Shown: in pieces, positions 14,202-27,860 of the stretch | Layout: each line of letters starts with the position of its first letter | Position numbering within the stretch: position 1 is the first letter of the stretch | IMG/VR virus record: IMGVR_UViG_3300030419_008158 | Location: 256,518-284,429 of that record | Length of the DNA: 27,912 nt | Reading direction: 5' to 3' (one strand) | From: a virus | The notes under the pieces: model-generated | Database searches by the model: none | Seen by the model: only the letters and a program-made list of their open reading frames with translations | What the model was told of the DNA's origin: nothing | Program-made: the position numbers and the translations under genes

Positions 14202-14519
14202 CTAAAACGTGTTGTACTTAGCATGCCCAAATACTTCGCCAGTATCCGGATCTTGATAAATTGTAACACCGCCCGGAAAACTTCCGCCAGACCACTGTTG
14301 AAATCTTTCAACTGTCTCTTCGGGAGACTCGCCCGGCTTTGACGACCAAATTTCATGCGTATCGGCGTAATATTTTCCGGCAAGTCTTTTTTTAAGATCG
14401 CTTACTTTGGCTTGAATGTCTGCTTTGAGAGCATAATTTACCTTGCTGCCTCTGATCGTTTGCTCTTTGTCGATCTGTTCCCTTATGAGGTCTCGGATCT
14501 GCTTCCTGGTTATCTTCAT
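14202..14519 (-). CDS. Leader-family protein, DPDTGEVFGHAKYNTF end
   Basis: A 105-residue protein starting MKITRKQIRDLIREQIDKEQ, the leftmost member of the leader family. Predicted prohead-protease-type sites would be I-R-E (12-14) and, weakly, I-D-K-E. The mature part begins near residue 15-20, continues with helical KADIQAKVSDLKKRL and a compact C-terminal strand region (GGVTIYQDPDTGEVFGHAKY). No other family is recognised. The start overlaps the previous stop as ATGA. Confidence 0.85.
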   Translation of the reverse strand: MKITRKQIRDLIREQIDKEQTIRGSKVNYALKADIQAKVSDLKKRLAGKYYADTHEIWSSKPGESPEETVERFQQWSGGSFPGGVTIYQDPDTGEVFGHAKYNTF

Positions 14520-14815
14520 CCTCTCATCTCCCTTGCAGTTGATAATTGTTCTCCGGACTCTTCTGCCCCTTCAACATCTCCCTTATCAAGAGCTTTTTGA
14601 CGTTGTGCTGACAAGGACTTGACATTTTGGGCAGTCGCTTGCTGTGTCGCTGGTGTAGAATCACCCATATCGACATCTAGGCCCATGGTTCCCACTGTCT
14701 CGTAACCGCTTTCGTCGTCGGTGTCATCTTTTTTTTCTGGTGGAGTGTATCCAACAACCTGCTCTTTCAAAGACTCCCTAATAATTCTTCTAAGCTGCTT
14801 TCTTGTAATTTTCAC
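14516..14815 (-). other. Nested in-frame leader start (GTG)
   Basis: The GTG at 14815 is exactly the first codon of the leader copy inside the cupin gene and is preceded by GAGGAAATATCTAAA. Starting here would give a 99-residue leader-family protein in the same frame as the cupin gene. Whether both are made cannot be told from sequence. Confidence 0.45.
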
Positions 14816-15043
14816 TTTAGATATTTCCTCTATTTCGACAACTAAGTTTTTCTGGCCCTTTATGATTCTGTGATAAGTATTTTTTGGAATAAAGTAAGTT
14901 TCGCCAGGAATCATTCTCCGCGGAATGTTGTTTTCTAGCTGCAGCTGCCAACCATCTCCATGGCAGACTTTAACATTTCGGTCCGATCGGTCCCTATGCC
15001 AGACCAACTCGTCAGAGTCGACATCGGCACTAAACTCTCTCAC
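14516..15043 (-). CDS. Cupin domain fused to an internal leader and acidic tail
   Basis: About 175 residues from the GTG at 15043, which has AGAGGT six bases upstream; the frame is open to 15133 but would overlap the neighbour by 49 bases. Residues about 1-70 form a cupin-like beta barrel (LVWHRDRSDR, GDGWQLQLEN, GETYFIPKNTYHRIIKG) of a type I associate with marine phages. A leader copy (VKITRKQLRRIIRESLKEQ) then begins about residue 77, followed by a D/E/T-rich tail with TTPATQQATAQ. Fusion of a cupin to a downstream leader protein is the simplest view. A GTG at the leader (14815) could start a shorter product. Confidence 0.7.
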   Translation of the reverse strand: MREFSADVDSDELVWHRDRSDRNVKVCHGDGWQLQLENNIPRRMIPGETYFIPKNTYHRIIKGQKNLVVEIEEISKVKITRKQLRRIIRESLKEQVVGYTPPEKKDDTDDESGYETVGTMGLDVDMGDSTPATQQATAQNVKSLSAQRQKALDKGDVEGAEESGEQLSTAREMRG

Positions 15044-15084
15044 TAGAAGACCTCTTTCTTTTTTTTGTTGAAAAGGATGCTTCA

Positions 15085-15819
15085 CTACCACCACCCTGCA
15101 ATATCTCTTCCAAAAAACTTTGTAGCGCGACATGACCAGTACCCTGGTTTTGTTTTATCTTTTTTATCAGAACAGTTGTGACGATCACCAAAGCTTTTCC
15201 TGCGCTTTTTGTGTGCAGGGCTATCGCCCATGGCATCAGGCATTGAAGAACCGAATGGGACTTTTTTCACTCTTATGGTGCCGTCCTTGTTCTTTTTTCC
15301 GGAATTTACATAGACATACGCTTTGCCGCCCTCGCCTCCGCGCTTTGGCTTGTTGAGCTCAACCTTCTTACCTTTGTACTCTGCTTCGTTTATGTGCTCT
15401 TCGTTTCCTTCCATGATTGGATAGTCTAAAGGGACAAGTTGGCCTTCGTATATTGCAAACTCACCGATGTCTAAATCTTCGAGAAGTTCGTACTCTTCTA
15501 AAGATTTCGGATCATATGTCCCCTCATAAAAACGTTGGCGTGCCTCTCTAAACAGAGCAAAGAACTTTGTAGATCCAGGACGAAATATGTTTTGATCCAC
15601 GCCCACACCTGCATCTAGGTGATAAAGGATTGCTTCTTCTAGCGTTTCTTTATCATCCTCGTTAATCTTTTCGCAGTTAGGGACCCTCTTTCCGCCTTTG
15701 CCTTTTTTGGTTTTCTTTCCAGACTGTGCTCCCGGACTATAGCCAGCCCAACAGGTGTTCTCCACTTCTTCCAGGGTCTCCCGAATTAAAATTCGAAGCT
15801 GTGTTTCTGAAATTTGCAT
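15085..15819 (-). CDS. Leader-family protein with RHNC...YWSC tail
   Basis: A 244-residue protein whose N-terminus, MQISETQLRILIRETLEEVE, is a divergent leader (I-R-E and L-E-E kept). It then has a CWAGYSPGAQSGKKTKKGKG and KRVPNCEKI stretch, an acidic helical middle, a lysine-rich stretch and a C-terminal RHNCSDKKD...PGYWSC motif. I recall both motifs from marine phage proteins of unknown function. Both have paired cysteines, which suggests metal or disulfide-stabilised modules. The C-terminus ends GRDIAGWW. It is larger than most leader proteins. Confidence 0.75.
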   Translation of the reverse strand: MQISETQLRILIRETLEEVENTCWAGYSPGAQSGKKTKKGKGGKRVPNCEKINEDDKETLEEAILYHLDAGVGVDQNIFRPGSTKFFALFREARQRFYEGTYDPKSLEEYELLEDLDIGEFAIYEGQLVPLDYPIMEGNEEHINEAEYKGKKVELNKPKRGGEGGKAYVYVNSGKKNKDGTIRVKKVPFGSSMPDAMGDSPAHKKRRKSFGDRHNCSDKKDKTKPGYWSCRATKFFGRDIAGWW

Positions 15820-15838
15820 TACTTCTTCTTTTTAGCTT

Positions 15839-16300
15839 TTAGTTATTTTCATTTGGGAGCTCTTTAACAACTTTTTTCAATTCATAAAATGACATACTGA
15901 GATTGATGCCATCAGAGCTTGTTTTGTCTGTCTTTAAAAGAGAGCCCTCTATTTCAAAACCATCAGAGCTTTGATATTCAACATACATTAACATAAGCAG
16001 ACGTGCTGCTGTTAAGTTTTTTTCAGAGGCGTCTCCGGGCCAAATAACGACAAGCAAATCAGGGACATTCATGCAGTTTTTGTGCCGCATTACTTGTGCC
16101 GGAATTGGAAATCTAAAAGGTGGTACTGTGTAAAACTCTTCAGGCTCGCTACACTTCTCTGCTAAGTTTTGTGCAGAAACATGGTCATGTTGTTGCTTCT
16201 TGATAACTTTAGTGGCTCCGCCGCATCCTGAACAGCTTGCAGCAAACATGAGAAGCACTCCCAAGAATATAAGTACAGTATTTTTTGCCTTTTTTATCAC
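15839..16300 (-). CDS. Predicted phage lipoprotein
   Basis: A 153-residue protein starting at GTG 16300 (overlapping the previous stop as GTGA; GGAG is upstream). The N-terminus is a positively charged and hydrophobic signal peptide followed by a lipobox-like FAASC-SGC near residues 20-26, so secretion and lipidation are likely, though the lipobox is not textbook. The mature part has no recognised domain; it may bind the outer membrane. Lipoproteins of phages often act in superinfection exclusion. It is the only exported protein within the leader array before the plus-strand gene. Confidence 0.7.
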   Translation of the reverse strand: MIKKAKNTVLIFLGVLLMFAASCSGCGGATKVIKKQQHDHVSAQNLAEKCSEPEEFYTVPPFRFPIPAQVMRHKNCMNVPDLLVVIWPGDASEKNLTAARLLMLMYVEYQSSDGFEIEGSLLKTDKTSSDGINLSMSFYELKKVVKELPNENN

Positions 16301-16656
16301 GTGTAGTCTCCATTTATAAGCTTGTCAGTAAACTCTTCCATGGTTTTGTAAGCTAGTTGTCGAACTCGACGAGTCAACTCATTCTCTAAATCAATAGCTG
16401 CATCATCGACCTGTGCTTTCCATACAGACTTTGCCTCAGCGGCTGTCTCGCCCATGGCCATCATGGAGGGATCGCCCTTGTCAAAAGCTTTGACTTCTGC
16501 ATCGTGCCACTTGTCAACTAGTTCACCCACATCAGACCAGTCAACCCTAGGCCAGTGATGCCCATTTCTTCCAAGGCCAGCAGCTTCATCCTGCTCTGCA
16601 AGATTTTCTTTCTCTTCTCTAATGATTCGCCTAAGTTGACGTTTTGTAATTTTCAT
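16297..16656 (-). CDS. Leader-family protein, HHWPRVDWSDVGELVDKW module
   Basis: A 119-residue protein with an excellent start (AAGGA, then ATG at 16656). The leader reads MKITKRQLRRIIREEKENL and is followed by L-A-E-Q, so I-R-E and L-A-E are the possible cleavage sites. The mature part is helical, HHWPRVDWSDVGELVDKW then a block with MAMGETAAEAKSVW and a C-terminal MEEFTDKLINGDYT. I recall this module from other marine phage proteins. The frame is open upstream to the stop at 16900 (see next entry), so a 183-residue start at 16848 is an alternative. Confidence 0.78.
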   Translation of the reverse strand: MKITKRQLRRIIREEKENLAEQDEAAGLGRNGHHWPRVDWSDVGELVDKWHDAEVKAFDKGDPSMMAMGETAAEAKSVWKAQVDDAAIDLENELTRRVRQLAYKTMEEFTDKLINGDYT

Positions 16657-16899: not shown

Positions 16900-16905
16900 T
16901 CACGT
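16870..16905 (-). promoter_or_regulatory. Two tandem perfect hairpins at an in-frame stop
   Basis: Two inverted repeats sit side by side: a 6-bp stem with 5-base loop at 16889-16905 and a 7-bp stem with 3-base loop at 16870-16886, two bases apart. The TGA stop (16900-16902) lies in the 5' arm of the first. The following base is C, a context known to weaken TGA. There is no T-run, so an intrinsic terminator is unlikely. Confidence 0.55.
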
Positions 16906-17031
16906 ATGACCAATGATGTCCTTTTCATCACTATCTAAATCTTTAACAGGCTCGAGCCCTGAACCGAAAGGCACAGACTTTTCTGCCTCTTCTCTAATCA
17001 GTCTTGCAAGTTGTTTCTTTGTAATTTTCAT
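16900..17031 (-). CDS. 43-residue leader-family ORF ending at a TGA
   Basis: A short gene starting MKITKKQLARLIREEAEK, a clear leader, and ending at a TGA after only 43 codons (DEKDIIGHT). It is too short for length-filtered calls. The same frame continues after the TGA for 81 more codons into the next leader. It may be a truncated protein, a gene broken by a nonsense change, or one with programmed readthrough. Two hairpins overlap and follow the stop. Confidence 0.7.
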   Translation of the reverse strand: MKITKKQLARLIREEAEKSVPFGSGLEPVKDLDSDEKDIIGHT

Positions 17032-17032
17032 C

Positions 17033-17809
17033 TTAATATCTTCCTCCGCGGTCAGCTGGGTGTACCCAGCTAGGATCTACTTCACCGTTTCCGAATAGTT
17101 TCGGACGATGAGCATCTATAGCAATAGAGTATTCGTCATTGCCCCAATCACGCAGAGTTTTGTCTTTGCGTGGGTCGTATCCATCGTCTCCCGGATACTG
17201 CCAATTTCCACTTTCAGGATCTTTGTGTCCCGGACGGCTTTCGGCGAGCAAAGCTTCACGGATCACTCGTCTTAGTTGCTTCTTGGAAACTTTTACTCTT
17301 TTGCCTTCTTGAAATCCGTCGACTGTTCTGGCATCATACTTTGACTTTAACCAGCTAGCTAGCTTTTCATTAATGTCTGGAATGTCATCCTCATCTGACA
17401 ATCCTTCTAGAGAATCGAGAGCGACGTTAAGAAAGTTATCCTCGACCGTGTCATCCACAATAGCAGCGACTTCGTCATCGACGTTTAGTTTGTCAAGCAT
17501 CGTATCAGTCTTCTTATCATCAGGAGCAGAATACATACTCTTTAACGTCTGTGCTAGAGACAAAGCAGTGCCAGCGCCTGGAACGATATCAGCCAAAGCC
17601 CCTATTCCGAGATCCTTTAACCCTTCGATACCCAACTTCGCTCTTTTTTCGCTCTGTAGCGTCTTAATTATTTTTCGAAGATCCCCGACCTTTCTGATCT
17701 GAGGGTCTACATCCATCTCGTCAGCTAAGCGCTCCCAGTTGATTTCGTTGAGGAAACGTGCCTTCTCTTCTCTGATGATTCGTCTTAGTTGTCTTTTTGT
17801 TACTTTCAC
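17033..17809 (-). CDS. Two-leader fusion: hydrophobic-hairpin module plus small module
   Basis: About 258 residues from the GTG at 17809, which shares a base with the previous stop (TAGTG) and has GGAGGA upstream. Module 1 has leader VKVTKRQLRRIIREEKARFLNE, then a helical region with the hydrophobic, glycine-rich segment LGIGALADIVPGAGTALSLA (about residues 61-80), typical of membrane-inserting hairpins, and LNVDDEVAAIVDDTVEDNFL. Module 2 begins near residue 172 with leader VKVSKKQLRRVIREALLAES, whose first codon is GTA, not a start. The two modules are therefore obligatorily joined. Function is not known. Similar first modules occur in marine phages as I recall. Confidence 0.82.
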   Translation of the reverse strand: MKVTKRQLRRIIREEKARFLNEINWERLADEMDVDPQIRKVGDLRKIIKTLQSEKRAKLGIEGLKDLGIGALADIVPGAGTALSLAQTLKSMYSAPDDKKTDTMLDKLNVDDEVAAIVDDTVEDNFLNVALDSLEGLSDEDDIPDINEKLASWLKSKYDARTVDGFQEGKRVKVSKKQLRRVIREALLAESRPGHKDPESGNWQYPGDDGYDPRKDKTLRDWGNDEYSIAIDAHRPKLFGNGEVDPSWVHPADRGGRY

Positions 17810-18513
17810 TACCAGCTTCCTCCCTCGGATTTCGCATGATTGAAGCCCATAGACCACCACTCGTAATTTTCGTCCTCTGGCATTGTATCATAGCCAGCGC
17901 CTCCATGGCTGCCAGCCTCATAGCCCACATCAAACCAGGCTTGTTGGTTTTTGGTCAAGCCTCTCTTGGGATTATCACCATAATAAGATCCATACTCTTT
18001 GAGTGCATTACCCATAATTGCCATGGCAAATTTACGCGTTGCCAGCGACTCAAAGGGCACTATAGATTCAAGTAGCCTTGACTTTTCTTCTTTGATGATT
18101 CTTCTTAGCTGCTTCTTGGTAATCTTTATTTTTGATTCTCCCATCATAACAGCTCTTTCTGCTTGTTGCACTTTGATTTCATGGCTAATATCTGAAACCC
18201 TCAGACCAAATGCGTCAGCTATCATAACCTTGTATGCTTCTCGCTTTGGGTCCTCTACGATATAAGATGCCACAACGGAGGAAGCTGATGGCGTTATGTG
18301 TCCGTTCTCTTCTGCCCACGCTACATAGTCATCGACGGGATCAAACCCACCGTCGTCCTGAACTCCCCCTATAGGCGCGTCGCCGGTTGGGTTATCACGA
18401 TATCGCTCGTAGTCTCCAGGAACAGTTGGGTCGTAAGGTCGTCCACCATACTCCTCGAGCCTGGCTTTCTCTTCTCTAATGATTCTTCTTAGCTGCTTCT
18501 TAGTAATCTTCAT
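17809..18513 (-). CDS. Two-leader fusion protein
   Basis: About 234 residues from ATG 18513, with GAGG ahead of it; a GTG at 18519 is two codons earlier. Module 1 has leader MKITKKQLRRIIREEKARLEEY, then a G/D/P-rich stretch and a helical VDDYVAWAEENGHI...VASYIVEDPKREAYKVM block. Module 2 begins near residue 129 with leader IKITKKQLRRIIKEEKSRLL (first codon ATA), then a KRGLTKNQQAWFDVGYEAGSHG block and FNHAKSEGG. ATG codons at 18144 and 18147, five or six codons ahead of the second leader, could start a separate product but have only a weak ribosome binding site. Confidence 0.8.
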   Translation of the reverse strand: MKITKKQLRRIIREEKARLEEYGGRPYDPTVPGDYERYRDNPTGDAPIGGVQDDGGFDPVDDYVAWAEENGHITPSASSVVASYIVEDPKREAYKVMIADAFGLRVSDISHEIKVQQAERAVMMGESKIKITKKQLRRIIKEEKSRLLESIVPFESLATRKFAMAIMGNALKEYGSYYGDNPKRGLTKNQQAWFDVGYEAGSHGGAGYDTMPEDENYEWWSMGFNHAKSEGGSW

Positions 18514-18886
18514 TTTCACCTCTTATCCAGGCACCTATCTCATAGGGAATCTGTTCACGAACCAGTGTGTCTAGACGTTGATATTTGTCTATTAGTTTGC
18601 GACTTGGCTTGCCCACAGCAGACATGTCATGAAGTGCTGCACTGAAAACCGCCTCTAAATCTCTAGCATCGGCCTCGTACCCATCATCAAGGAACATCTC
18701 AATCGCATATTGCATCTCATCAATGGCTGACTCACTGAATTCGCCATCATCTTCTACGCTGCTCAACCTAGCATCGGTATCTGGAAAGTATGTCTGCTTT
18801 ATCTTGCCAGGTGCGCGTAACATCGGTGCTTCGCGGAGAAGTTCTTCTTTGATGATTCTTCTAAGCTGTCTCTTTGTGACTTTCAT
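18500..18886 (-). CDS. Leader-family protein, 128 residues
   Basis: Starts MKVTKRQLRRIIKEELLREA, with I-K-E and L-R-E. The mature part is acidic and helical: SAIDEMQYAIEMFLDDGYEAD, DLEAVFSAALHDMS and a C-terminal QIPYEIGAWIRGENEDY. No named family. The start overlaps the preceding stop as ATGA; its 3' end overlaps the next gene by 14 bases. Confidence 0.82.
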   Translation of the reverse strand: MKVTKRQLRRIIKEELLREAPMLRAPGKIKQTYFPDTDARLSSVEDDGEFSESAIDEMQYAIEMFLDDGYEADARDLEAVFSAALHDMSAVGKPSRKLIDKYQRLDTLVREQIPYEIGAWIRGENEDY

Positions 18887-19215
18887 GATCTGTCCTTGTG
18901 ATTTGGGTTGATGACGCCCGTGTAGATTATAAGGGCGCCCATGCCCGCTTTGTGGATTTCGGCGCCCATCATGCGCTCAGCTTCCGCAGCGATATCCGGA
19001 TCGTTTGTAAAGAAAATTAGTTCGCCACTGGGTTCATACTCACCATGTAGATGATTGTGTTCAGCCCAATCCATCCATTGTTGTTCTGAAGTGGCTTGGC
19101 GTGAAGAAGGAGACGCACCTAGTTTGTGACCGCCTACCGATGCTGCTCCATGGCCGGTGTAGCCCTTAACGATCTCAGATATAATGCCCCTAAGTTGTCG
19201 CTTCGTGATTTTCAT
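18883..19215 (-). CDS. Leader-family protein, 110 residues
   Basis: Starts MKITKRQLRGIISEIVKG, the copy where S replaces the usual K/R of the I-x-E triplet. The mature part is a short SSRQAT linker, then EQQWMDWAEHNHLHGEY, a strand GELIFFTNDPDIAAEAERMM and a C-terminal MGALIIYTGVINPNH. This alternation suggests a small alpha/beta domain. No family recognised. Confidence 0.82.
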   Translation of the reverse strand: MKITKRQLRGIISEIVKGYTGHGAASVGGHKLGASPSSRQATSEQQWMDWAEHNHLHGEYEPSGELIFFTNDPDIAAEAERMMGAEIHKAGMGALIIYTGVINPNHKDRS

Positions 19216-19481
19216 TCTGTATATTCCGGATGCTCTAAGGCTTCGATCGCTGCTATCACTGCGTTCATAGATTCCTTATTGCCTGTGTTTCTCGCTAAAA
19301 TAGAAAGCGCTTTCTTTAGGTGCGGAAGCGCCTCCGCCGGGTCGTGCCCACCAAAAAAACCCTCGGTGTCCAGCCTGGCTAGCCGCCTAGCTTCATCACG
19401 CTCGGCAGGTGTTACTTCAGAAAGCAACCTGGACCTCTCTTCTTTGATGATTCTTCTAAGACGACTTTTTGAAATTTTCAT
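19212..19481 (-). CDS. Leader-family protein, 89 residues
   Basis: Starts MKISKSRLRRIIKEERSRLLSE, with I-K-E and L-L-S-E. The mature part is a helical, A/E-rich segment (TPAERDEARRLAR, AEALPHLKKALSIL, NAVIAAIEALEHPE), with an order of about three helices that recalls TPR-like helical hairpins. A few bases separate it from the next gene. No known family. Confidence 0.82.
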   Translation of the reverse strand: MKISKSRLRRIIKEERSRLLSEVTPAERDEARRLARLDTEGFFGGHDPAEALPHLKKALSILARNTGNKESMNAVIAAIEALEHPEYTE

Positions 19482-19492: not shown

Positions 19493-19783
19493 CTAGTCCA
19501 AATCAGCTAACATGTATCGATACCCTATACTGTCCAAGAATTCACCAAAAACTTCAGTAACAGCGGCTACAGCCATTTCTTCAGCCTCTTCTTCCATAAG
19601 ACCTTCTTCAGCTATGAAGTCATTAACAGCGTTTGTGTATAGATGCGTCATTAATGTTTTAGATCTTTCAGCCATGTTGTTGTCTATAAGCCCTCGTCCT
19701 CTCTCGCCGAGCGTCATCTCACTAAGGAGGCTGGCCTTCTCTTCTTTGATGATTCTTCGCAGTTGTCGTTTGGTAATTTTCAT
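19493..19783 (-). CDS. Leader-family protein, 96 residues
   Basis: Starts MKITKRQLRRIIKEEKASLLSE, close to the consensus. After the second site (L-L-S-E) the mature part is helical and acidic: ERSKTLMTHLYTNAVNDFI, EEAEEMAVAAVTEVFGEFLDS. The start overlaps the stop of the coiled-coil membrane gene as ATGA. No known family. Confidence 0.83.
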   Translation of the reverse strand: MKITKRQLRRIIKEEKASLLSEMTLGERGRGLIDNNMAERSKTLMTHLYTNAVNDFIAEEGLMEEEAEEMAVAAVTEVFGEFLDSIGYRYMLADLD

Positions 19784-19971
19784 TTTTCTAGCCTCTTGAC
19801 ACGTTTCAAAAGTTTCTGGATCCTAATCTCAAGTCCCTTATTTCTCTTCTCCACGGATTCAACTTGCTGCTCAAGAGCGTTGAGCCTGTACTCAGTTCCG
19901 TAGTAGAAGCCACCGAAAGTGACTGCCAACCCACCGAGAAGGACCAACATCTTAAGATCAAGTTTCATCAT
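19780..19971 (-). CDS. Membrane-anchored coiled-coil peptide, no leader
   Basis: About 63 residues from ATG 19971 (TGATG overlap with the previous stop). An N-terminal hydrophobic helix (LKMLVLLGGLAVTFGGFYYG) is followed by a heptad-rich coiled coil (LNALEQQVESVEKR, IRIQKLLKRVKRLEK) that is strongly basic at the end. The layout resembles small phage membrane proteins such as i-spanin-like or tape-linked anchors, but no partner is adjacent. The only leader-less gene between the flanking leader genes. Confidence 0.72.
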   Translation of the reverse strand: MMKLDLKMLVLLGGLAVTFGGFYYGTEYRLNALEQQVESVEKRNKGLEIRIQKLLKRVKRLEK

Positions 19972-20396
19972 GGACATACCCACTTAGCCATCCTTTGTTG
20001 CCAGTATGGCTCAACAGTCTTTCCTGTTCTTCGATCTTTGCAACCCATTTCCTCGCCGGTAGGCTTTTTGTCTGCCCTGCTGGTGTCTACCCGACCTGAA
20101 GTGTCTATACCGGGCGTCCAGTACTCCTCGAGATCATCTTCTTTAAGCAGCGGCGCTGTATGAGCTAGATCATCAATTAGGCCTTCGTAGTCTTGAACGA
20201 CAGCAAAATGGCCTAGGTCATCCATAAAGTCATCGTACAGTAGATTTTTAATCGCGCCGGCGTCGCCCATGGAGGCCAGAGCGGGATCAGAATGATAAGA
20301 AGCTGCTCTATCTGTTAGATATCTTACAACTTCTTCATGAGAAGCTGTAGCAGCTTCGCGAATGATTCTTCTAAGCTGTCTCTTTGTAATTCTCAT
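19968..20396 (-). CDS. Leader-family protein, MRITKRQLRRIIREA
   Basis: About 142 residues from ATG 20396, with AAAGGAG upstream; the frame extends to 20423 but the leader fixes the start. After the leader, MRITKRQLRRIIREAATAS, comes a helical region (EEVVRYLTDRAASYHSD, IKNLLYDDFMDDLGHFAVVQ) and a charged C-terminus with TGEEMGCKDRRTG and KWVCP, including two cysteines. No family recognised. Confidence 0.8.
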   Translation of the reverse strand: MRITKRQLRRIIREAATASHEEVVRYLTDRAASYHSDPALASMGDAGAIKNLLYDDFMDDLGHFAVVQDYEGLIDDLAHTAPLLKEDDLEEYWTPGIDTSGRVDTSRADKKPTGEEMGCKDRRTGKTVEPYWQQRMAKWVCP

Positions 20397-20422: not shown

Positions 20423-21460
20423 CTAAATATCATCATGTCTGGCATTATGATTGGTCATTCTTTCTAAAACATTTTCTACGATTCGTGCCTCATAAATCTT
20501 CTCTCTCTTGAACTGTTTTAGATTTTTTCTAATTTTTCTCTGGAGCTTTTTTGTAAACTTTTCTTCTGGGTACTCTTCGTAATACTCTTTAAAATTGTCA
20601 GCGACCCCTACGGACTTCGCTATTTTCTGCATTTTATCAATATCTTGAGATTCTACTGCTTCTAGAGCGCTATCTATGCCGTATGTCTGTGCCAACCGCT
20701 CAGCAAACTCATGCCCAAAAGCATCAATTTCAATATGTGATCCCAAATAATCTCTTCTGGGTGCTCCTTCGAGTGGAATAAGGCCCCAATCTTCAAGTTT
20801 CTTTTTTGCTTCCCCGCGGGAAACTCCCATGTCCCTGGAGATTGATGTGTACTGTCGATCATGCATAAGCTCATGTCGGATAGTTGCTGATATATCTTGG
20901 GCTATTTTGACAGGTTCAATTAGATTCTTGTCAAAGCTTTCATCAGCTGTTACTGCAAATAAAAGAAGAACGCCTCTGTCGCGGCCATCTAGGGCCATTT
21001 GTGCGCCGACAACAAAGCGATTTGGGTTTGAATTATTTTGCAGCTTATTAGACCCACCTTTAATTCCTGTCTGGTCGATGCTTACGACATTAACTTCAAT
21101 GGGAAGCCCTATTTCTTTAAAGAATAAATCTAACGTGTCATCAAGTGACTCTGCTGCGTCTGTTTGCTCGACGGCGCCTAGAAATTTAGAGCTGTGAATC
21201 TCTGTGTATTCATTATCCTCTAGATAAAACTTAGACGTCAACAGTGCATTTTCAATTCCACCATAAACATCGCGGCGGAGCGGAAGAGATTGTTCTCCTA
21301 TTAAATGCATCTTCTTGTAATAGTCAGAAATTTTACGCAAAAACTTAGAGTCGTACTCATTTTCATTCCCTTCTCTGTCCAAAAACAGAGAGGTGGAACT
21401 TGCCTGGTCATAAGGCTGGTTCGAACGCATTTTATATTTTCTGCGATTGCTCTTTTTCAT
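20423..21460 (-). CDS. HExxH metallopeptidase, no leader
   Basis: A 345-residue protein with a zinc-binding HELMH (residues 196-200) and, about 44 residues later, HIEIDAFGHEFAERL, where the glutamate of EIDAFGHE is a likely third ligand. This is a zincin/gluzincin layout of a kind found in several phage structural proteins and host-directed peptidases. No prohead-protease (gp21) or collagenase motif is seen, so a role in processing leader proteins is only a hypothesis. Its C-terminus is basic and helical. The start at 21460 lacks a clear ribosome binding site; ATG 21430 is an alternative. Confidence 0.75.
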   Translation of the reverse strand: MKKSNRRKYKMRSNQPYDQASSTSLFLDREGNENEYDSKFLRKISDYYKKMHLIGEQSLPLRRDVYGGIENALLTSKFYLEDNEYTEIHSSKFLGAVEQTDAAESLDDTLDLFFKEIGLPIEVNVVSIDQTGIKGGSNKLQNNSNPNRFVVGAQMALDGRDRGVLLLFAVTADESFDKNLIEPVKIAQDISATIRHELMHDRQYTSISRDMGVSRGEAKKKLEDWGLIPLEGAPRRDYLGSHIEIDAFGHEFAERLAQTYGIDSALEAVESQDIDKMQKIAKSVGVADNFKEYYEEYPEEKFTKKLQRKIRKNLKQFKREKIYEARIVENVLERMTNHNARHDDI

Positions 21461-21490: not shown

Positions 21491-21796
21491 CTAAGAAGTA
21501 CCGCTGACTTCTGCTGCTGCCTTCTTGAGCAAGGGAATTACTTTGATAATTTCATCTCCTTGATCTAGCAAGCCAAGAAAAAGATCTGCAATTACTTTGT
21601 TTTGCTTTGCATTTCTACCGGGTCCTGCTTTCATAGCAGCTGAAAGTACTGACTTGTTTACGTCTTTTCCCAACCCAAGCTTTGTAATAATTTTTTGCAA
21701 CTCATCGGTTGCTTCTTCATCTTGCTCTATCAGATTATTTTCTACAAGATATTTTCTGACAGAGTCACGTAATTTTTCTTCTGTAATAGCAGGCAT
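21491..21796 (-). CDS. Helical protein with a divergent leader
   Basis: About 101 residues from ATG 21796, which has GGAGGGG nine bases upstream; a longer frame to 21916 overlaps uvsE. The N-terminus MPAITEEKLRDSVRKYLVEN shows a stretched version of the leader pattern (I-T-x-x-x-L-R-x-x-x-R-x-x-L) and is followed by L-I-E-Q, an L-x-E site. The rest is helical (KIITKLGLGKDVNKSVL, IKVIPLLKKAAAEV). May be an older relative of the family. Confidence 0.72.
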   Translation of the reverse strand: MPAITEEKLRDSVRKYLVENNLIEQDEEATDELQKIITKLGLGKDVNKSVLSAAMKAGPGRNAKQNKVIADLFLGLLDQGDEIIKVIPLLKKAAAEVSGTS

Positions 21797-21827
21797 TTGT
21801 CCCCTCCGTGCATTGTGATTGTAAATA

Positions 21828-22766
21828 TCATGCTGCGGCTTGAAAATTCTTCTTTTCAAAGTCGAACAAGTACTTAAATACAGCTTTCTCTTTTGCTTTG
21901 GCTTCCATGGCAACATCTACTGACTTGCCGCAAGAATTAAAGGGTTTATAATAGTAATCAGAATGTGCTGCTACAGACCTACACGTAGGATCTTCATACT
22001 TTTTCTTGCTGTTTGAGTGATGACACATTGGCCTTATACCAGCAGGCCATGTATCGTAAGCCATCAGAAATGCCTCTTCGTAAGATGTATCCTGGGGCCC
22101 GCATTCAAAATGATGCGAATCAAAAACAATCGGCACACCCAGGCGTTTGTATACTGAGTCGTATAGCATTTTAGTTGAGTACAAATTTGGCCTGTCGTCA
22201 TTTTCGACAGTAAGTCGACTGCGAACATTTTCAGGAAGTTTTTCAAAATTTCGACACCATGTGTCTAAAGCTTTTTCTCTATCACCATACGAAGCACCAA
22301 TGTGAATGTTAATCTTGGCATTGTGATTCATGGGCATGCCCATCATGTCCATCTGATCGCCGTGAATGCTTAGATCTTTTACACAATTTGAAACTACATA
22401 CTCTTTGGGAGATGCCAGGCAATTGAAAGGTCCCGGATGAAAAGAAAGACGCTGGCCTGTTTTATGAGCAAAGTCTCCGACCTTTCTTAAATTTTCTCTA
22501 ATTTGCTCAATATTGGGAAGCTGGTGCCACTCATATTCGCTAGCCCAAGGAAATAAATTAGATGTAATTCGAAAAACTTCAAAGCCGTTTGCAGAATTCC
22601 ACTCTAAGATACGCAGAAGGTCTTCTGTGTTATCAAGAGCAAGTTTTGAGGTGTAACCTAAGCCCTTAGCTTTAAATGTCTTCTGCCTCATTGTACGACT
22701 TGTAAAGACACCTTCATTTTTTTGAAGCTCAAGATTAATACAACAGTATCCAAATCGATTCGACAT
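21828..22766 (-). CDS. uvsE: UV damage endonuclease (UVDE/UvsE)
   Basis: A 312-residue TIM-barrel endonuclease that nicks 5' of UV photoproducts and other distortions. Matches to the family are GYCCINLEL at the start, FRITSNLFPWAS, RLSFHPGPFNCLAS, the INIHIGASYGDRE segment, a LTVENDD metal site and VFDSHHF. The usual metal-binding H, E and D residues can be seen. Length matches the bacterial enzyme (about 300 residues). AGGAG precedes the ATG and its own promoter lies upstream. It interrupts the leader array but is transcribed in the same direction. Phage copies are known; UV repair suits a surface-water virus. Confidence 0.95.
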   Translation of the reverse strand: MSNRFGYCCINLELQKNEGVFTSRTMRQKTFKAKGLGYTSKLALDNTEDLLRILEWNSANGFEVFRITSNLFPWASEYEWHQLPNIEQIRENLRKVGDFAHKTGQRLSFHPGPFNCLASPKEYVVSNCVKDLSIHGDQMDMMGMPMNHNAKINIHIGASYGDREKALDTWCRNFEKLPENVRSRLTVENDDRPNLYSTKMLYDSVYKRLGVPIVFDSHHFECGPQDTSYEEAFLMAYDTWPAGIRPMCHHSNSKKKYEDPTCRSVAAHSDYYYKPFNSCGKSVDVAMEAKAKEKAVFKYLFDFEKKNFQAAA

Positions 22767-22793
22767 GTCCTTGCTCCTTGTAGGTACTTCAGA

Positions 22794-22823: not shown

Positions 22824-22847
22824 AAAACTGGCAAAACAGACGAAGAA

Positions 22848-23117: not shown

Positions 23118-23118
23118 G

Positions 23119-23223: not shown

Positions 23224-23235
23224 ATAATATTTTCT

Positions 23236-23856
23236 CTAGTCGTAGTACGAAGTTGTTCTCTTGACTGACTTGCGGCGCTTTCTCAAAGTTGCGCCGCCCT
23301 TCTCTAACACCTTGATAACCTTGTCGATAGTTGTTCCGGCCGCTTTTGCGCCCCTTTCGTCTACTACGAAGGTTGAATGACCTAAAGGCATTGTGCCCCA
23401 CGGGGTTTCACTATCTTCAATTTGGAAAGCTACAATCTTGCCACCCCTGCGAATAGGCTGGTAGGTCAAGTACGCTACCTCACGATCCTCGAGGCCGTCA
23501 TCTATTGCTTTGAGTTCTTTTATGTTGGGCGACTTAGAAATGTTTGCTTTTCGCTCGGTGTCTTGTGCATCGGTGATCGCATAGCTGATAAGTTCAAGAT
23601 CCGGGTATGGTGTAACCCCTAAGTCTGCAAGTGTGCCCCTGTCGTCTTCGTAAAAAGCATCTGCCTGATCTAAACCGTACTCGTCAATAAAAACCTGCGC
23701 AACTTTTTTGTGGTCAGCATTGCTCATTTTTGAAGGGTCTTTCGGGAGCGCAGCAACAAGCTTTTTCTCCCATGCATCCATCTCAGCCTGGCGTTCTTTC
23801 CAGGATTTTACTTGTTCTTTGATGATTCTTCTTAGATGGTTCTTAGTAACTCTCAT
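23236..23856 (-). CDS. Leader-family protein, 206 residues
   Basis: Starts MRVTKNHLRRIIKEQVKSW, with I-K-E. It is one of the longest single-leader members. The mature part begins with a helical WKERQAEMDAWEKKLV and continues with a beta-containing domain (EVAYLTYQPIRRGGKIVAFQI, TFVVDERGAKAA), and ends basic (RKRRKSVKRTT). The SYAITDAQDTERKANIS stretch is acidic. No known family. It overlaps the next gene by 14 bases. Confidence 0.8.
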   Translation of the reverse strand: MRVTKNHLRRIIKEQVKSWKERQAEMDAWEKKLVAALPKDPSKMSNADHKKVAQVFIDEYGLDQADAFYEDDRGTLADLGVTPYPDLELISYAITDAQDTERKANISKSPNIKELKAIDDGLEDREVAYLTYQPIRRGGKIVAFQIEDSETPWGTMPLGHSTFVVDERGAKAAGTTIDKVIKVLEKGGATLRKRRKSVKRTTSYYD

Positions 23857-24127
23857 AATCTAACACCCTCAAAACTTCTCGATGATCATCGTCAGTAATG
23901 TCATTTTTAGACAGCTCTTCGATTATTGCTCTAATAACTGATCTTGCACCCAGCTTTCTAATTGCACTAACATACGCATCCTCAACGTCGATCTGCTTGA
24001 ATTCTTCTCTTGGTTGGAATTTACCTCCACCTATAGCACCCATGATATCAGGTATGTCGGGCTGTTCCATAAGCTTAGCCTTCTCTTCTTTGATGATTCT
24101 TCTTAGTTGTCTTTTTGTGATTTTCAT
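23843..24127 (-). CDS. Leader-family protein, 94 residues
   Basis: Starts MKITKRQLRRIIKEEKAKLMEQ; L-M-E is the second site. The ATG at 24127 has GGAG upstream and overlaps the previous stop as TAATG. The frame is open to 24157. The mature part has a G/P-rich segment, then helices DAYVSAIRKLGARSVIRAII and HREVLRVLDYES. No family. Confidence 0.82.
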   Translation of the reverse strand: MKITKRQLRRIIKEEKAKLMEQPDIPDIMGAIGGGKFQPREEFKQIDVEDAYVSAIRKLGARSVIRAIIEELSKNDITDDDHREVLRVLDYESY

Positions 24128-24501
24128 TAGAATCTCCACCCTGCGTCTGGTGACCATGATACTGGTATCTCAACATAGCCACTCGCCATTTGCTTTTCTA
24201 TCTTGTCAATCATAGCGTCACCAAGAGCACCAGGAACCCTTTGGCCGGATGCGATGTAAAGTGCGCTAGGCACAAAGTCAAGCTCTGTCTCGCCTCCACT
24301 CACTAGAAGGGAATCGCCAGTGGGGCTCAATGTTATCGTGGTCTTGTAGCCCCGCTTCGAAGTTTGCTGGCTCCTTCCGAGGTACTTGTTTCCTGCCGCG
24401 GCAGGTTGTGCTTCAAACGAATCACCAGGTATCATACGGATGGGCTCATCATCCATGGCTTCTATAATGATTCTTCTAAGTTGTCTTTTTGTGATTTTCA
24501 T
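24127..24501 (-). CDS. Leader-family protein, 124 residues
   Basis: Starts MKITKRQLRRIIIEAMDDE, the copy with I-I-E instead of I-K-E. The mature part has a G/Q/S/T-rich stretch, a strand-rich TTITLSPTGDSLLVSGGET segment, and a final VEIPVSWSPDAGWRF. It looks like a small beta domain. No known family. The start shares a base with the previous stop. Confidence 0.82.
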   Translation of the reverse strand: MKITKRQLRRIIIEAMDDEPIRMIPGDSFEAQPAAAGNKYLGRSQQTSKRGYKTTITLSPTGDSLLVSGGETELDFVPSALYIASGQRVPGALGDAMIDKIEKQMASGYVEIPVSWSPDAGWRF

Positions 24502-24827
24502 TAGTATCTCCCCGGGGCTCTGTAGCTTGACTTCTGCTTAGAATACAGGTCGTGAATCTGTTGATATACGTCAAGAGGCCAGTTGATTGCCTGACCGCTG
24601 TCATCTCGGTATCCACCGCTGTGAATCTCGACCTCTTCTTTCATGTCAGCAGCATCACCTTCGAATTCGTAGAACGCTGTAGACAAAGCATCTGTGACAC
24701 CGCCGTAAGATCTGGTTACGCCGAGCTTCTTAAGCATTGTCTTGAGACCACGTGGGTCGACACCTTCGTTCAACAGACTGATTTCTTCCTTGATGATTCT
24801 TCTTAGTTGTCTTTCTGTGATTTTCAT
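24501..24827 (-). CDS. Leader-family protein, 108 residues
   Basis: Starts MKITERQLRRIIKEEISLLNEG, where E replaces the usual K at position 5 and L-L-N-E is the second site. The mature part has a helical segment DPRGLKTMLKKLGVT, an acidic EFEGDAADMKEE stretch, and PLDVYQQIHDLYSKQKSS near the end. No known family. It is spaced 5 bases from its upstream gene and shares a base with the next. Confidence 0.82.
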   Translation of the reverse strand: MKITERQLRRIIKEEISLLNEGVDPRGLKTMLKKLGVTRSYGGVTDALSTAFYEFEGDAADMKEEVEIHSGGYRDDSGQAINWPLDVYQQIHDLYSKQKSSYRAPGRY

Positions 24828-24832
24828 AGTTT

Positions 24833-25054
24833 TTACCTTTTCGTGCCTTCTATTTCATCAGCAATATCTCGAAGTGCACTAGCTTTTTCATTCGAACGTC
24901 TAAGTCCGTAGTGTGCTAATAAAATAAAAATAGCCTTAGTAAGACCAAGCGTCAGCAATGAAGACAAATCTTCTTTCAGCAGTGTATCTGGCATTTGTTT
25001 GTCTTTGACACTTTCTGCAATAATTTTTCTCAGCTGTGATCTAGTAATCTTCAC
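24833..25054 (-). CDS. Leader-family protein with a hydrophobic helix
   Basis: About 73 residues from GTG 25054, where the leader begins VKITRSQLRKIIAESVKDK. I-A-E is kept with A in the middle and L-K-E follows. An in-frame ATG at 25087 would add an unrelated dozen residues. The mature part carries a hydrophobic helix (SLLTLGLTKAIFILLAHYGL, about residues 32-51) and a helical tail with DIADEIEGTKR. It is one of two leader proteins with a likely membrane-binding segment. Confidence 0.75.
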   Translation of the reverse strand: MKITRSQLRKIIAESVKDKQMPDTLLKEDLSSLLTLGLTKAIFILLAHYGLRRSNEKASALRDIADEIEGTKR

Positions 25055-25262
25055 CGACACCCCTTTTATTTTCAGCAAACGGAACAAACTCTCCTTTGCA
25101 ATTGTAAATTCCCCACTTCTTGCTGTAGACTTTCTTGATAATTCTATTCAGCTTTTTCGCTGACAAGCTGTTCTTTTTAGATGCTTTTTGTTTGGGATCA
25201 ATTCCTGCCCACTTGTAATGTTCCGCTGGAATATTGATCGGAGATATCTTTTCAACTTTCAC
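25041..25262 (-). CDS. Small protein with a degenerate internal leader
   Basis: A 73-residue protein starting at GTG 25262, overlapping the previous stop as GTGA. Residues about 33-46 (LSAKKLNRIIKKVYSKK) look like a worn leader (K-K-L-x-R-I-I-K-K) in which the conserved E has become K, placed in the middle of the protein. The rest is not recognised (SPINIPAEHYKWAGIDP; GIYNCKGEFVPF). It overlaps the next gene by 14 bases. Confidence 0.65.
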   Translation of the reverse strand: MKVEKISPINIPAEHYKWAGIDPKQKASKKNSLSAKKLNRIIKKVYSKKWGIYNCKGEFVPFAENKRGVGEDY

Positions 25263-25501
25263 TTAGCAGCCTCATCTTTAGATTTTTTACTCCATTCCTC
25301 CTCAGGTAGAAACTTCTCTATCTTAAACTTGAGAATGGACTTTCCGTTGATTGTAGGATGACCATCATCGTCTTCTCCTATTTTATTCACGATTGTTCGC
25401 TTGTTTTTGAACTTACCTGTCAAAATGACATCTCCCTTCTCGATATTGAGAATGATGGCTTCTCTGATGATTCTCCTTAGATGTCGTTTTGTGATTTTCA
25501 A
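25259..25501 (-). CDS. Leader-family protein with a small beta domain
   Basis: An 80-residue protein starting at TTG 25501, encoding MKITKRHLRRIIREAIILN. The mature part (KGDVILTGKFKNKR, VNKIGEDDDGHPTING, ILKFKIEKFLP) is a compact beta-type domain I recall from several phage proteins of unknown role. The TTG is chosen because the leader fixes the start; AAGAAGAG precedes it. Short spacing from the preceding gene. Confidence 0.8.
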   Translation of the reverse strand: MKITKRHLRRIIREAIILNIEKGDVILTGKFKNKRTIVNKIGEDDDGHPTINGKSILKFKIEKFLPEEEWSKKSKDEAAK

Positions 25502-25502
25502 T

Positions 25503-25655
25503 TTACTCTTCTTTGTTCCAAGATGCTTCGGGATCTTCCATCATGTCAATCATGCTCTTTTCGAATCCTCTGGCAGCTATCCATGCACCCAGAATCATTC
25601 CAGTACCAATACACCCTATGAACAACAAGCCGACAAAAATTGAATCCCACGTCAT
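25503..25655 (-). CDS. 50-residue single-pass membrane protein
   Basis: A short gene with one hydrophobic helix (about residues 5-26, SIFVGLLFIGCIGTGMILG) and an acidic C-terminal tail (MEDPEASWNKEE). The start overlaps the stop of the 23-residue ORF as ATGA. It ends one base before the TTG start of the next leader gene. It lacks a leader. No function recognised. Confidence 0.7.
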   Translation of the reverse strand: MTWDSIFVGLLFIGCIGTGMILGAWIAARGFEKSMIDMMEDPEASWNKEE

Positions 25656-25723
25656 TTTTTATTGCCTTTTTTGCCCGGAAAGGGTGACAAACCCTTGAGA
25701 AGTGCCTGCCAAAACGTAATCAT
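25652..25723 (-). CDS. 23-residue translationally coupled ORF
   Basis: Starts at an ATG that overlaps the preceding stop as TGATG and ends in an ATGA overlap with the next start. It encodes MITFWQALLKGLSPFPGKKG and three more residues: a short amphipathic helix with a basic end. Overlaps on both sides argue for real translation, though so small an ORF could also be a coupling device only. Confidence 0.5.
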   Translation of the reverse strand: MITFWQALLKGLSPFPGKKGNKK

Positions 25724-26064
25724 CAATCCAAGCTCCACAACATTAAAGTGCCCGGGTCGTTCCACTCTGGAGCAAACCCATAATTGTCAATAACGAACGC
25801 CTCAAAATCAGGGTGTACACCAAATATATAGGGATCCGAGTTTATATAGTAATCAAAGAGAGGCAAGCCGTCCTCAGCCTCAGGAACATTGCTTTCAGCA
25901 TCGAGCCACACTCCTCCGGGAGTACCGTCAAATTCTTCAGTGGTTCTCACCCTGAGTCCGTATTTAGACTCAAGGGCGTCCATGAGCTCGTCTCTTTTGT
26001 CAACAGACATGGATTCCAGCTCTTCTTTAATAATTCGTCTAAGTTGTCGTTGTGTGATTTTCAT
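25723..26064 (-). CDS. Leader-family protein, 113 residues
   Basis: Starts MKITQRQLRRIIKEELESM; I-K-E is kept but the second site is weak. The start at ATG 26064 overlaps the previous stop as TGATG. The mature part has an acidic helix (DKRDELMDALESKYGL), a beta-rich central part (GVWLDAESNVPEAED, FDYYINSDPYIFGV) and ends PGTLMLWSLD. No family. Confidence 0.82.
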   Translation of the reverse strand: MKITQRQLRRIIKEELESMSVDKRDELMDALESKYGLRVRTTEEFDGTPGGVWLDAESNVPEAEDGLPLFDYYINSDPYIFGVHPDFEAFVIDNYGFAPEWNDPGTLMLWSLD

Positions 26065-26378
26065 CAAACACCTCGCTTCTTCATATCATGTGCCAAGTCT
26101 GACATTTCTTCAGCGGCATCCATCAAAAGCTCTTCTAGTTTATCATATCTGGAAGTGCCGAATTTGTTACCGTCATCAAGCCACTCCGGAGGTATAGATT
26201 TTATTTTTCGATATTCAAAGAACATTTTGTCCAGCGCTGATCTCATGGCTTCAACCCTGTCGACCTCACCCTGATTGAGAGTCTGCTGTCTAACATCTTC
26301 TCCAGCCCGAATCTCATTTACAAGCTTACCCTTCTCTTCTTTAACAATTCTTCTAAGTTGTTTCTTTGTGATTTTCAT
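26064..26378 (-). CDS. Leader-family protein, 104 residues
   Basis: Starts MKITKKQLRRIVKEEKGKLVNE, the copy with V-K-E instead of I-K-E and V-N-E as second site. The mature part is helical: RQQTLNQGEVDRVEAMRSAL, DKMFFEYRKIKSIPPEWLDDG, KLEELLMDAAEEMSDLAHDM. A compact helical bundle is likely. No named family. Confidence 0.82.
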   Translation of the reverse strand: MKITKKQLRRIVKEEKGKLVNEIRAGEDVRQQTLNQGEVDRVEAMRSALDKMFFEYRKIKSIPPEWLDDGNKFGTSRYDKLEELLMDAAEEMSDLAHDMKKRGV

Positions 26379-26381
26379 AAA

Positions 26382-26645
26382 CTACCGGCCTTTCATAATA
26401 TTATGCTTAGTTATAAAGTCATTAGCCCAAGCAGCCAGGCTATCGCTATCAGAGAAGAAGTCTTCGCCCAGAGCTTCTACTTCAGCAGCTAAATTGAATA
26501 ACTTGCCGGCGATGCTTTGAGGAGTGATCACTTTGCCTTGGTGGGTGCGTTCGAGCGGCCCGGGATCTGATCCTTCCAGCGCTTCGTTAAGCTTCGCCTT
26601 CTCTTCTCTAATGATTTGTCTAAGTTGTTTGTCTGTGATTCTCAC
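26382..26645 (-). CDS. Leader-family protein, 87 residues
   Basis: Starts at GTG 26645, overlapping the previous stop as GTGA, and encodes MRITDKQLRQIIREEKAKLNE. I-R-E and L-N-E are present. The mature part has a G/P/S-rich piece, then helices QSIAGKLFNLAAEVEALGE and SLAAWANDFITKHNI. No known family. Confidence 0.8.
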   Translation of the reverse strand: MRITDKQLRQIIREEKAKLNEALEGSDPGPLERTHQGKVITPQSIAGKLFNLAAEVEALGEDFFSDSDSLAAWANDFITKHNIMKGR

Positions 26646-27325
26646 TTCTTTTTACCCTTCTTTTTCTTTTTCTTGGACTTTTTCACAACTGCCCAAGGCT
26701 TTGAAGGCGTCGCAGAATTAACTCTTGCATGTGCCCATTGGTGCTGTGACATACCTTTCCTGGAGCCAGATGAAGCCCAGGCTGCTAGACCTTTCTTGAA
26801 CTCTGCATAGACAGAACTTGGGGTGAGACCTCTCTTTTCTGCCTTCTTCTTTAGCGTCGCCTTGGTCTTTGCACTGAGCTCCTCGGAAAGAAGATTTCGA
26901 ATCACTTCTCGGAGATCGGCCTCGGTCATTCTCATGTGGTGAGACTCTTTTTTAGTGTCTTTGCGAGGCTTGTTCTTAAATCCCTTTTTGGATCTTTCCT
27001 TCTTTTCCATTCTTTCTCGACGTCGATAAGCTCGAGCAATTCTCTCAGGATCTCCGCTTGCTAGGTCCTCTTTTGTTTTGTCTAGACCTTTGTCTCTTGG
27101 GCTGCCTTGTGGCGCACCGTACTGCTTTGGGTGTGGAGTATCAGATTCTTCCATACCGTGGTGAGCTTCTTTCTTACTCTTTTTGGATTTATTAATAATC
27201 CCTTTCTGAAGATGGTCAGGTAGCTTATCTTGATCACCCTTTAGGGCTGGATCGTCGTCGTATTTTTCAGTAGACTTAGCTTCCTCTCTGATTATTCTTC
27301 TTAGTTTCTGCTTAGTCATTTTCAT
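26642..27325 (-). CDS. Two-leader lysine-rich protein
   Basis: A 227-residue protein. Module 1 starts MKMTKQKLRRIIREEAKSTE, followed by a very basic, low-complexity stretch with two runs of K and R. Module 2 begins at about residue 131 with MRMTEADLREVIRNLLSEE, where the I-x-E triplet has changed to I-R-N but L-S-E remains. It is followed by a helical AKTKATLKKKAEKRGLTPSS and GLAAWASSGSRKGMSQHQWA block that I recall from phage proteins, and a long poly-lysine tail. Net charge is extreme, consistent with DNA binding inside the head. An internal ATG at 26935 could start module 2 alone. Confidence 0.8.
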   Translation of the reverse strand: MKMTKQKLRRIIREEAKSTEKYDDDPALKGDQDKLPDHLQKGIINKSKKSKKEAHHGMEESDTPHPKQYGAPQGSPRDKGLDKTKEDLASGDPERIARAYRRRERMEKKERSKKGFKNKPRKDTKKESHHMRMTEADLREVIRNLLSEELSAKTKATLKKKAEKRGLTPSSVYAEFKKGLAAWASSGSRKGMSQHQWAHARVNSATPSKPWAVVKKSKKKKKKGKKK

Positions 27326-27326
27326 C

Positions 27327-27602
27327 TTATTTTCCTTGCCTATACGCTTTATCTGCCTGGGAACCGACAGGAGCCATAAGTTTCTTTAATTGGTTAGAAA
27401 AAGAAAAGAAAGGATGACCGAACTCCTCGTATGCTGGATCACGTTCAGAGTACTTTACAATTTCTTCTGCAATCATTTGCGCTTTTTGAAGGTGATCAAG
27501 CATCAAATACATCTCATCGAGAGGATTATATTCATATGCTTCTTGTAGCTTCGCCTTCTCTTCTTTGATGATTCTTTTTAGTTGTCTTTTGGTGATTCTC
27601 AT
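27327..27602 (-). CDS. Leader-family protein, 91 residues
   Basis: Starts MRITKRQLKRIIKEEKAKLQEA; I-K-E and L-Q-E are present. The mature part begins YEYNPLDEMYLMLDHLQKA, then a helical AEEIVKYSERDPAYEEFGH and a basic C-terminus. One base separates the start from the preceding stop. Confidence 0.83.
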   Translation of the reverse strand: MRITKRQLKRIIKEEKAKLQEAYEYNPLDEMYLMLDHLQKAQMIAEEIVKYSERDPAYEEFGHPFFSFSNQLKKLMAPVGSQADKAYRQGK

Positions 27603-27603
27603 C

Positions 27604-27858
27604 TTAGTAATCCTTTAGCGCCTTTATTTGTTTTTCTAGATCTTCTGCCGCACGAATAACCTCTGGCTTTTGATTTTGCTTGGCTTCAGTCCATATGTCC
27701 CACAGCGCAGAAGTAGCTTCAGAAATGGAATCAATTGCCCTTTGTAAGTGCTCCGAGCGATAAGCTGCACGTGCAAACATATGATCAGCCTGCTCATTGA
27801 GAAGCCTGGCCTTCTCTTCTTTGATGATTCTTCTTAATTGCCTTTTAGTAATCTTCAC
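27604..27858 (-). CDS. Leader-family protein, 84 residues
   Basis: Starts at GTG 27858, with GGAGGA upstream, and encodes MKITKRQLRRIIKEEKARLL followed by N-E, the cleanest copy of the consensus. The mature part is helical: ADHMFARAAYRSEHLQRAI, SISEATSALWDIWTEAKQN, EVIRAAEDLEKQIKALKD. A short helical bundle is likely. No named family. It is the last complete gene of the window. Confidence 0.83.
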   Translation of the reverse strand: MKITKRQLRRIIKEEKARLLNEQADHMFARAAYRSEHLQRAIDSISEATSALWDIWTEAKQNQKPEVIRAAEDLEKQIKALKDY

Positions 27859-27860
27859 TG

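Follow-up and report, generated by a model that had tools for sequence, protein, structure and literature searches.

A recurrent N-terminal leader on mostly unrelated giant-phage proteins as a putative, protease-removed capsid-targeting sequence

The closest described counterpart of the system reported here is that of phage T4, in which IPI, IPII, IPIII and Alt carry a capsid-targeting sequence (CTS) that is cut by the prohead protease gp21. Within the T4 tag, residues 4 and 7 direct targeting and residues 8 and 10 direct processing, and a review proposes that such sequences allow a variety of proteins to be loaded by T4-like phages (PMC9026906); for the T4 internal proteins, a role against 'first-response' host defences has been proposed (PMC9391042). 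The stretch analysed here, referred to as the window, comprises 27,912 bases (G000:C1:256518-284429) and forms the final 28 kb of the 284,429-base IMG/VR virus record IMGVR_UViG_3300030419_008158. In it, a leader of the form MKITKRQLRRIIKEE heads a long series of proteins, and the likeness to T4 lies in small, unrelated proteins that share a short N-terminal tag, in an S77 protease and in a cut motif of the [L/I]-x-E kind. The leader is very probably a capsid-targeting sequence that has a relative in a head protein's N-terminus, is recognised as the prohead assembles and is then cut off by the S77 protease.

The window holds 27 leader copies on the minus strand between positions 14202 and 27858, of which 26 were recovered by regular expression and one, MQISETQLRILIRETLEE, was added at 15819. 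This is the number given in an earlier sequence-only reading of the same DNA, and its description of residues 12-14 as [I/V]-x-E in 26 of the 27 copies, with I-R-N at 26935 (MRMTEADLREVIRN) as the exception, was likewise reproduced. The total for the whole record is larger, approximately 41, with further copies at C1:55-583 (three), C1:184.5-189.2 kb (11) and C1:226.9 kb (one). Relatives were collected from IMG/VR contigs with a degenerate DNA pattern for the leader, and all figures for relatives refer to the matches listed. To avoid circularity for residues 12-14, only residues 2-11 entered the position-specific scoring matrix. The leader recurs far beyond chance: the matrix recovered at least 531 distinct real leader starts, whereas none of 79,295 shuffled start sites reached 12 bits.

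Among 269 copies that had not been chosen by the search pattern, residue 12 was I or V in 99% and residue 14 was E in 93%, with residue 13 variable. In homologues, the I-x-E column ranks among the best conserved, with a free middle residue, as the sequence-only reading would have it. Conservation is high through residue 14 (E14) and lower beyond, and a gp21-type motif stands at the end of the tag, [I/V]-x-E occupying residues 12-14 in 96%. A further [LIV]-x-E is most frequent at residues 21-22, and a second site within residues 17-26 is present in 59% of the proteins across relatives, compared to 16% expected. The earlier statement that most copies have a second L-x-E by residue 22 stands in so far as the site is common (26 of 40 copies in the record), though it is not universal. 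Where E14 is missing, another Phi-x-E (Phi, hydrophobic residue) lies at residues 13-25 in 19 of 20 non-redundant leaders (approximately 23% expected, p 1e-11); three of the E14-less leaders are shifted by one residue to I-L-x-E15 and two to E13. Residue 15, the P1' position, also covaries with the second site, which is found in 81% of the leaders with E15 vs 21% of those with A15. The association persisted when residues 14-24 were made non-redundant at 46% identity (p 6e-5), and shared descent of leader subtypes could partly lie behind it.

A gp21-like prohead protease, whose absence would have counted against the sequence-only reading, is indeed encoded by the record (S77 type; C1:82529-82945; PF03420, E 5.7e-27; PHROG 'head maturation protease', E 1e-50), together with a gp23-type major capsid protein. 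In most relatives the N-terminus of the protease reads L-T-E|W, which may be likened to LIE-9 in T4 gp21 (PMC9026906). The predicted cut site of the capsid protein is [VLI]-[LI]-[KR]-E in most of 70 related capsid proteins, with A, Q, S, V or R as the next residue; every one of the 34 distinct predicted sites has K or R at P2, and none has E at P1', where A is commonest. The I-I-[KR]-E found in most leader copies thus has the same P3-P1 residues as the predicted capsid-protein site. Each of the 14 viral records that bear the leader and measure 142 kb or more also has an S77 protease; among shorter leader-bearing records, which are probably fragments, it was found in two of 16. When contigs were picked by the protease alone, five of six carried the leader, and 11 control contigs picked by a ribonucleotide-reductase motif (one of them >142 kb) had neither leader nor S77 protease. 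Among 11.3 million contigs of bacterial and archaeal genomes the pattern matched four, of which the two large ones look viral, with an S77 protease in both of those assemblies.

A candidate source of the leader was found in the head module of the same record, which is carried by the stretch L012. Between the protease and scaffold genes lies a 153-residue gene, here termed headL (L012:15575-16036), which is present in 76 relatives. Its N-terminus, MAKITKRMLKGIVKECLVEILSEG (consensus of relatives MAK[ILM][TS][KR]xxLKx[IVL][VI]KECLVEIL[SA]EG), aligns with the leader over 22 residues without gaps and with both E14 and E22 in register (hhalign 96.5%, E 1e-9), compared to <1% for seven other head-module N-termini and 13% for the best of 50 column shuffles. 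Invariant residues of the headL alignment cluster in the leader-like segment, and AlphaFold predicts a helix from residue 6 to 25. headL matched no known family and nothing in GenBank phages; its position and its Phi-x-E motifs suggest that it is a core protein. Elsewhere in the module, the scaffold protein (L012:12372-14003, minus strand) has a conserved internal EIDESxLRREL that resembles the first half of the leader, and possibly hints at what the leader mimics; tried as a leader-like sequence, the motif EIDESVLRREL did not score well against the leader and was set aside. In two relatives (L148 and L166), the homologue of L012:14003-14632 is a head-module protein that starts MESELLKNLIRE and MERELIKSLIRE, respectively, with a Phi-x-x-Phi-Phi-x-E core.

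Sixteen leaders lie inside longer open reading frames (ORFs) and have no start codon, including two in the window with ATA at 18129 and GTA at 17296. In 12 of these 16, an [LIVMF]-x-E occurs at most six residues before the internal leader (body rate 7.7%, p 6e-11), as in M-G-E|SK, F-Q-E|GK, I-R-E|GE and L-G-E|SR. It was considered whether this motif could be a translated Shine-Dalgarno sequence, but the same-frame sequence upstream of separate leader genes has E in 128 of 305 cases and Phi-x-E in only 18 of 305 (6%). A translated ribosome-binding site accounts for the E and not for the hydrophobic residue two positions before it, and is therefore insufficient. The simplest reading of these sequences is that a fused leader gene encodes a polyprotein cut on either side of the inner leader, and such flanking cuts would free two separate proteins.

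These observations bear on two alternatives, which, like the one taken up further below, were weighed against the whole statement, retention of the bodies in the head included. In one, the repeat would be maintained for its DNA or RNA, serving as a recombination hotspot through which cassettes are swapped or as a translation-start element, and the peptide would be functionless. The tandem copies with partial DNA identity would suit this explanation, and cassette swapping probably also happens, but the codons at fixed residues vary widely and synonymously (all six Leu codons occur at L8, for example), which points to selection on the peptide. Since internal copies without a start codon retain the peptide, and the head protein has the same peptide at a separate locus, such an origin is barely credible. 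Alternatively, the leader helix could bind a target outside the head, such as DNA or the nucleoid, a membrane or an import route into a phage compartment, with E14 serving in helix capping or salt bridges. This would agree with the strongly basic character of the leader (net charge +3 to +5 in most copies) and with a helix predicted from about residue 5. It would, however, leave unexplained the match to headL, the agreement with the capsid-protein site, K/R at P2 included, the relocated cut motif in 19 of 20 E14-less copies, the association of E15 with the second site and the Phi-x-E before internal leaders, and is considered very unlikely.

The bodies behind the leader had been described as mostly unrelated, and all-against-all BLASTP from residue 25 onward bears this out: apart from trivial self-overlaps and a few weak pairs, almost nothing is common after residue 24, which leaves approximately 36 almost entirely unrelated bodies in the record. 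When 37 proteins of the record were scanned against Pfam and PHROG, hardly any matched, and a Foldseek search of one leader-protein model against the PDB gave no match. Domains could be assigned to some leader-headed proteins of relatives: L,D-transpeptidase (YkuD), SLT transglycosylase and phage lysozyme domains, an M78 peptidase, and pentapeptide, LRV and HEAT repeats. Enzymes acting on peptidoglycan are commonly carried in virions, and the YkuD, SLT and lysozyme bodies would fit virion-borne proteins. In the family of the gene at 16297-16656, a fixed leader and a conserved body are joined by a linker whose length differs between members and which coincides with the lowest model confidence, as expected for a removable tag. 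A competing explanation is that the tag does target the prohead core, but that the proteins are mainly core or scaffold helpers, similar to T4 gp67 and gp68, which are degraded in maturation and never injected. The match of the leader to the N-terminus of a head-module protein is compatible with this, as is the fact that many bodies are small, acidic and devoid of known domains. So many unrelated bodies in one record would, on the other hand, be odd for a scaffold, as would YkuD, SLT, lysozyme and pentapeptide-repeat bodies in relatives, and a family that conserves leader and body around a variable linker also speaks against it. We therefore regard this explanation as unlikely.

The capsid-targeting interpretation of the leader is strongly supported by the sequences, although not proven. 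In the proposed mechanism, the leader, as a copy of the headL N-terminus, would form a short amphipathic helix that binds the scaffold or core during prohead assembly on behalf of approximately 40 otherwise unrelated proteins. The S77 protease would then cut at one of two places, behind [I/V]-x-E (residue 14) or behind the second L-x-E near residues 21-22, and the freed bodies would stay in the head, be packaged with the DNA and probably be injected. Injection into the host, suggested by analogy with the T4 internal proteins (PMC9026906, PMC9391042), seems somewhat more probable than its contrary. For the broadest formulation we see even chances: that a family of giant phages has converted the N-terminus of a single head-assembly protein into an all-purpose 'load into head' address. 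Each genome would carry this address on a changing set of dozens of cargo proteins and also inside fused genes, where cleavage by the protease to either side of the inner tag would let one gene yield two to three cargo proteins.

Several observations weigh against the capsid-targeting interpretation. The commonest P1' residue of the leader is E (60%), which never occurs at the predicted capsid-protein site, so E14 itself may be poorly cut in many copies. The capsid-protein sites were themselves predicted from conservation and from position aligned to the T4 cut site, and the compensation statistics are drawn from related sequences, which makes their p-values approximate. One of the six contigs picked by the protease has no leader, and one leader protein of a relative matches a baseplate-hub PHROG, which is not obviously a head protein. 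The T4 late promoter TATAAATA is not enriched, with one chance-level match each in the window and the head module. Finally, the leader has no detectable sequence homology to the T4 CTS, so that the link to T4 is by analogy, and a set of about 40 members is unusual given that T4 manages with a handful of internal proteins.

The leader genes of the window, all on the minus strand, are described here from the end of the record inwards. The first two are MKITKRQLRRIIKEEKARLLNE (27604..27858, GTG start, 84 aa) and MRITKRQLKRIIKEEKAKLQE (27327..27602, 91 aa), followed by MKMTKQKLRRIIREE (26642..27325, 227 aa), which contains the internal leader-like copy MRMTEADLREVIRN at 26894..26935 that lacks E14 and continues with LLSE. 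Next come MRITDKQLRQIIREEKAKLNE (26382..26645, GTG, 87 aa), MKITKKQLRRIVKEEKGKLVNE (26064..26378, 104 aa), MKITQRQLRRIIKEE (25723..26064, 113 aa) and MKITKRHLRRIIREA (25259..25501, TTG, 80 aa), the last with approximately 10 leader-bearing homologues among relatives. They are followed by MKITRSQLRKIIAES (24833..25054, GTG, 73 aa), MKITERQLRRIIKEEISLLNE (24501..24827, 108 aa), MKITKRQLRRIIIEA (24127..24501, 124 aa), MKITKRQLRRIIKEEKAKLME (23843..24127, 94 aa) and MRVTKNHLRRIIKEQ (23236..23856, 206 aa). Beyond a wider interval, the series resumes with MRITKRQLRRIIREA (19968..20396, 142 aa), MKITKRQLRRIIKEEKASLLSE (19493..19783, 96 aa), MKISKSRLRRIIKEERSRLLSE (19212..19481, 89 aa), MKITKRQLRGIISEI (18883..19215, 110 aa) and MKVTKRQLRRIIKEE (18500..18886, 128 aa). 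Two genes with two leaders each lie side by side: MKITKKQLRRIIREE (17809..18513, 234 aa) has the internal leader IKITKKQLRRIIKEE at 18088..18129, with ATA in place of a start codon and M-G-E|SK before it, and MKVTKRQLRRIIREE (17033..17809, GTG, 258 aa) has the internal leader VKVSKKQLRRVIREA at 17255..17296, with GTA in place of a start codon and F-Q-E|GKR before it. The remainder comprises the short gene MKITKKQLARLIREE (16900..17031, 43 aa), MKITKRQLRRIIREE (16297..16656, 119 aa), which belongs to the family with the variable-length linker, MQISETQLRILIRETLEE (15085..15819, 244 aa), the GTG copy VKITRKQLRRIIRES (14516..14815) and MKITRKQIRDLIREQ (14202..14519, 105 aa). The copy VKITRKQLRRIIRES follows in frame after the upstream domain of ORF 14516-15133, which ends ..VVEIEE|ISK just before it. 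This upstream domain is cupin-like, and a relative (L073) is arranged alike, with a Phi-x-E preceding the leader in both.

Leader-free ORFs also lie inside the array interval, for example 15839-16300, 20423-21460 and 21828-22766. The second of these (minus strand) encodes a 345-residue protein with a zinc-peptidase-like HELMH motif, and the third (minus strand) a protein judged by eye to be UV-damage-endonuclease-like. At 21491-21916 (minus strand), an internal start of the ORF, MPAITEEKLRDSVRKYLVENNLIEQ, resembles a strongly diverged leader in which E14 is lost and L-V-E and L-I-E are kept. The ends of the record match each other, window positions 27492-27605 and 27801-27912 corresponding to C1:1-114 and 281-392 with 91% and 96% identity, respectively; as these matches fall within the leader array, the array probably spans the two ends, with the assembly interrupted by the repeat. 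The record additionally holds two different tail-sheath-like genes (approximately 1,050-1,110 residues, by eye), at window 5882-9226 and L012:2674-5823.

Among GenBank phages, a BLAST search with the leader gave a single match, the 484-kb uncultured phage LR756508, which has approximately 12 diverged leader copies, MRLSERKLRRIVKEEISRVL and others. Some of these genes lie within its head module, between the protease and the scaffold and capsid genes. The leader profile had no match in T4 (E 0.01), phiKZ, KVP40, Bacillus phage G, XacN1, S-PM2 or LR756511, and no occurrence of the leader sequence was found in the open-access papers searched. The two halves of the LR756508 S77 protease are separated by an intein-like insert (L227:1-1298; LR756508.1 ~156.5-158.1 kb). 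Several proteins of the same phage with ADP-ribosyltransferase-like motifs (LYRGT) are headed by another N-terminal tag, shorter than the first, M-[KR]-[FL]-K-x-[IL]-L-x-E (L227:20793-25899 and L231), which shows the Phi-x-x-Phi-Phi-x-E spacing of the leader; the packaged Alt protein of T4 is an ADP-ribosyltransferase.

If the tag is a head address, several hundred uncharacterised proteins, corresponding to the at least 531 distinct leader starts, would be marked as likely head cargo from sequence alone, which would provide a simple rule for finding injected proteins of uncultured phages. The head protein would then be a testable source for how capsid-targeting sequences arise, and the cargo a candidate set for screening against bacterial defence systems; few internal proteins of the T4 kind are known.

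Compared to known systems, the leader stands nearest to the T4 tags in its architecture. T4 IPII and IPIII (MKTYQEFIAE), gp24 (MAKINELLRE) and gp22 (MLKEQLIAE) have the same Phi-x-x-Phi-Phi-x-E spacing, with Y4, F7, I8 and E10 of T4 corresponding to L8, I11, I12 and E14 of the leader. It differs in being longer and strongly basic with K/R rather than A/T at P2, in having approximately 41 members, about 10 times more than the handful in T4, and in its second cut motif near residue 22, its internal copies in fused proteins and its relative in the head module. The jumbo phages phiKZ and SPN3US are similar in that many of their head proteins are cleaved, packaged and ejected, in their gp21-related proteases (gp175 and gp245, respectively) and in redundant propeptide sites, and SPN3US gp53 and gp54 are identical over their first 15 residues (PMC5694885, PMC9026906). 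The SPN3US propeptides are, however, mostly >100 residues long, while conservation of the leader ends at residues 14-22, and cleavage in these phages takes place at S/A-x-E or A-x-E rather than I/V-x-E. The leader has no match in phiKZ, and the proteins of these phages form a few paralog families, in contrast to the unrelated bodies behind one short tag seen here. The injected polyvalent proteins of other tailed phages likewise deliver several effector activities with the DNA (PMC7824862), but as large multidomain proteins, whereas the cargo predicted here consists of many small separate proteins and some two- or three-leader fusions. By analogy, the leader is best filed as working like the T4 CTS, as a variant of that kind.

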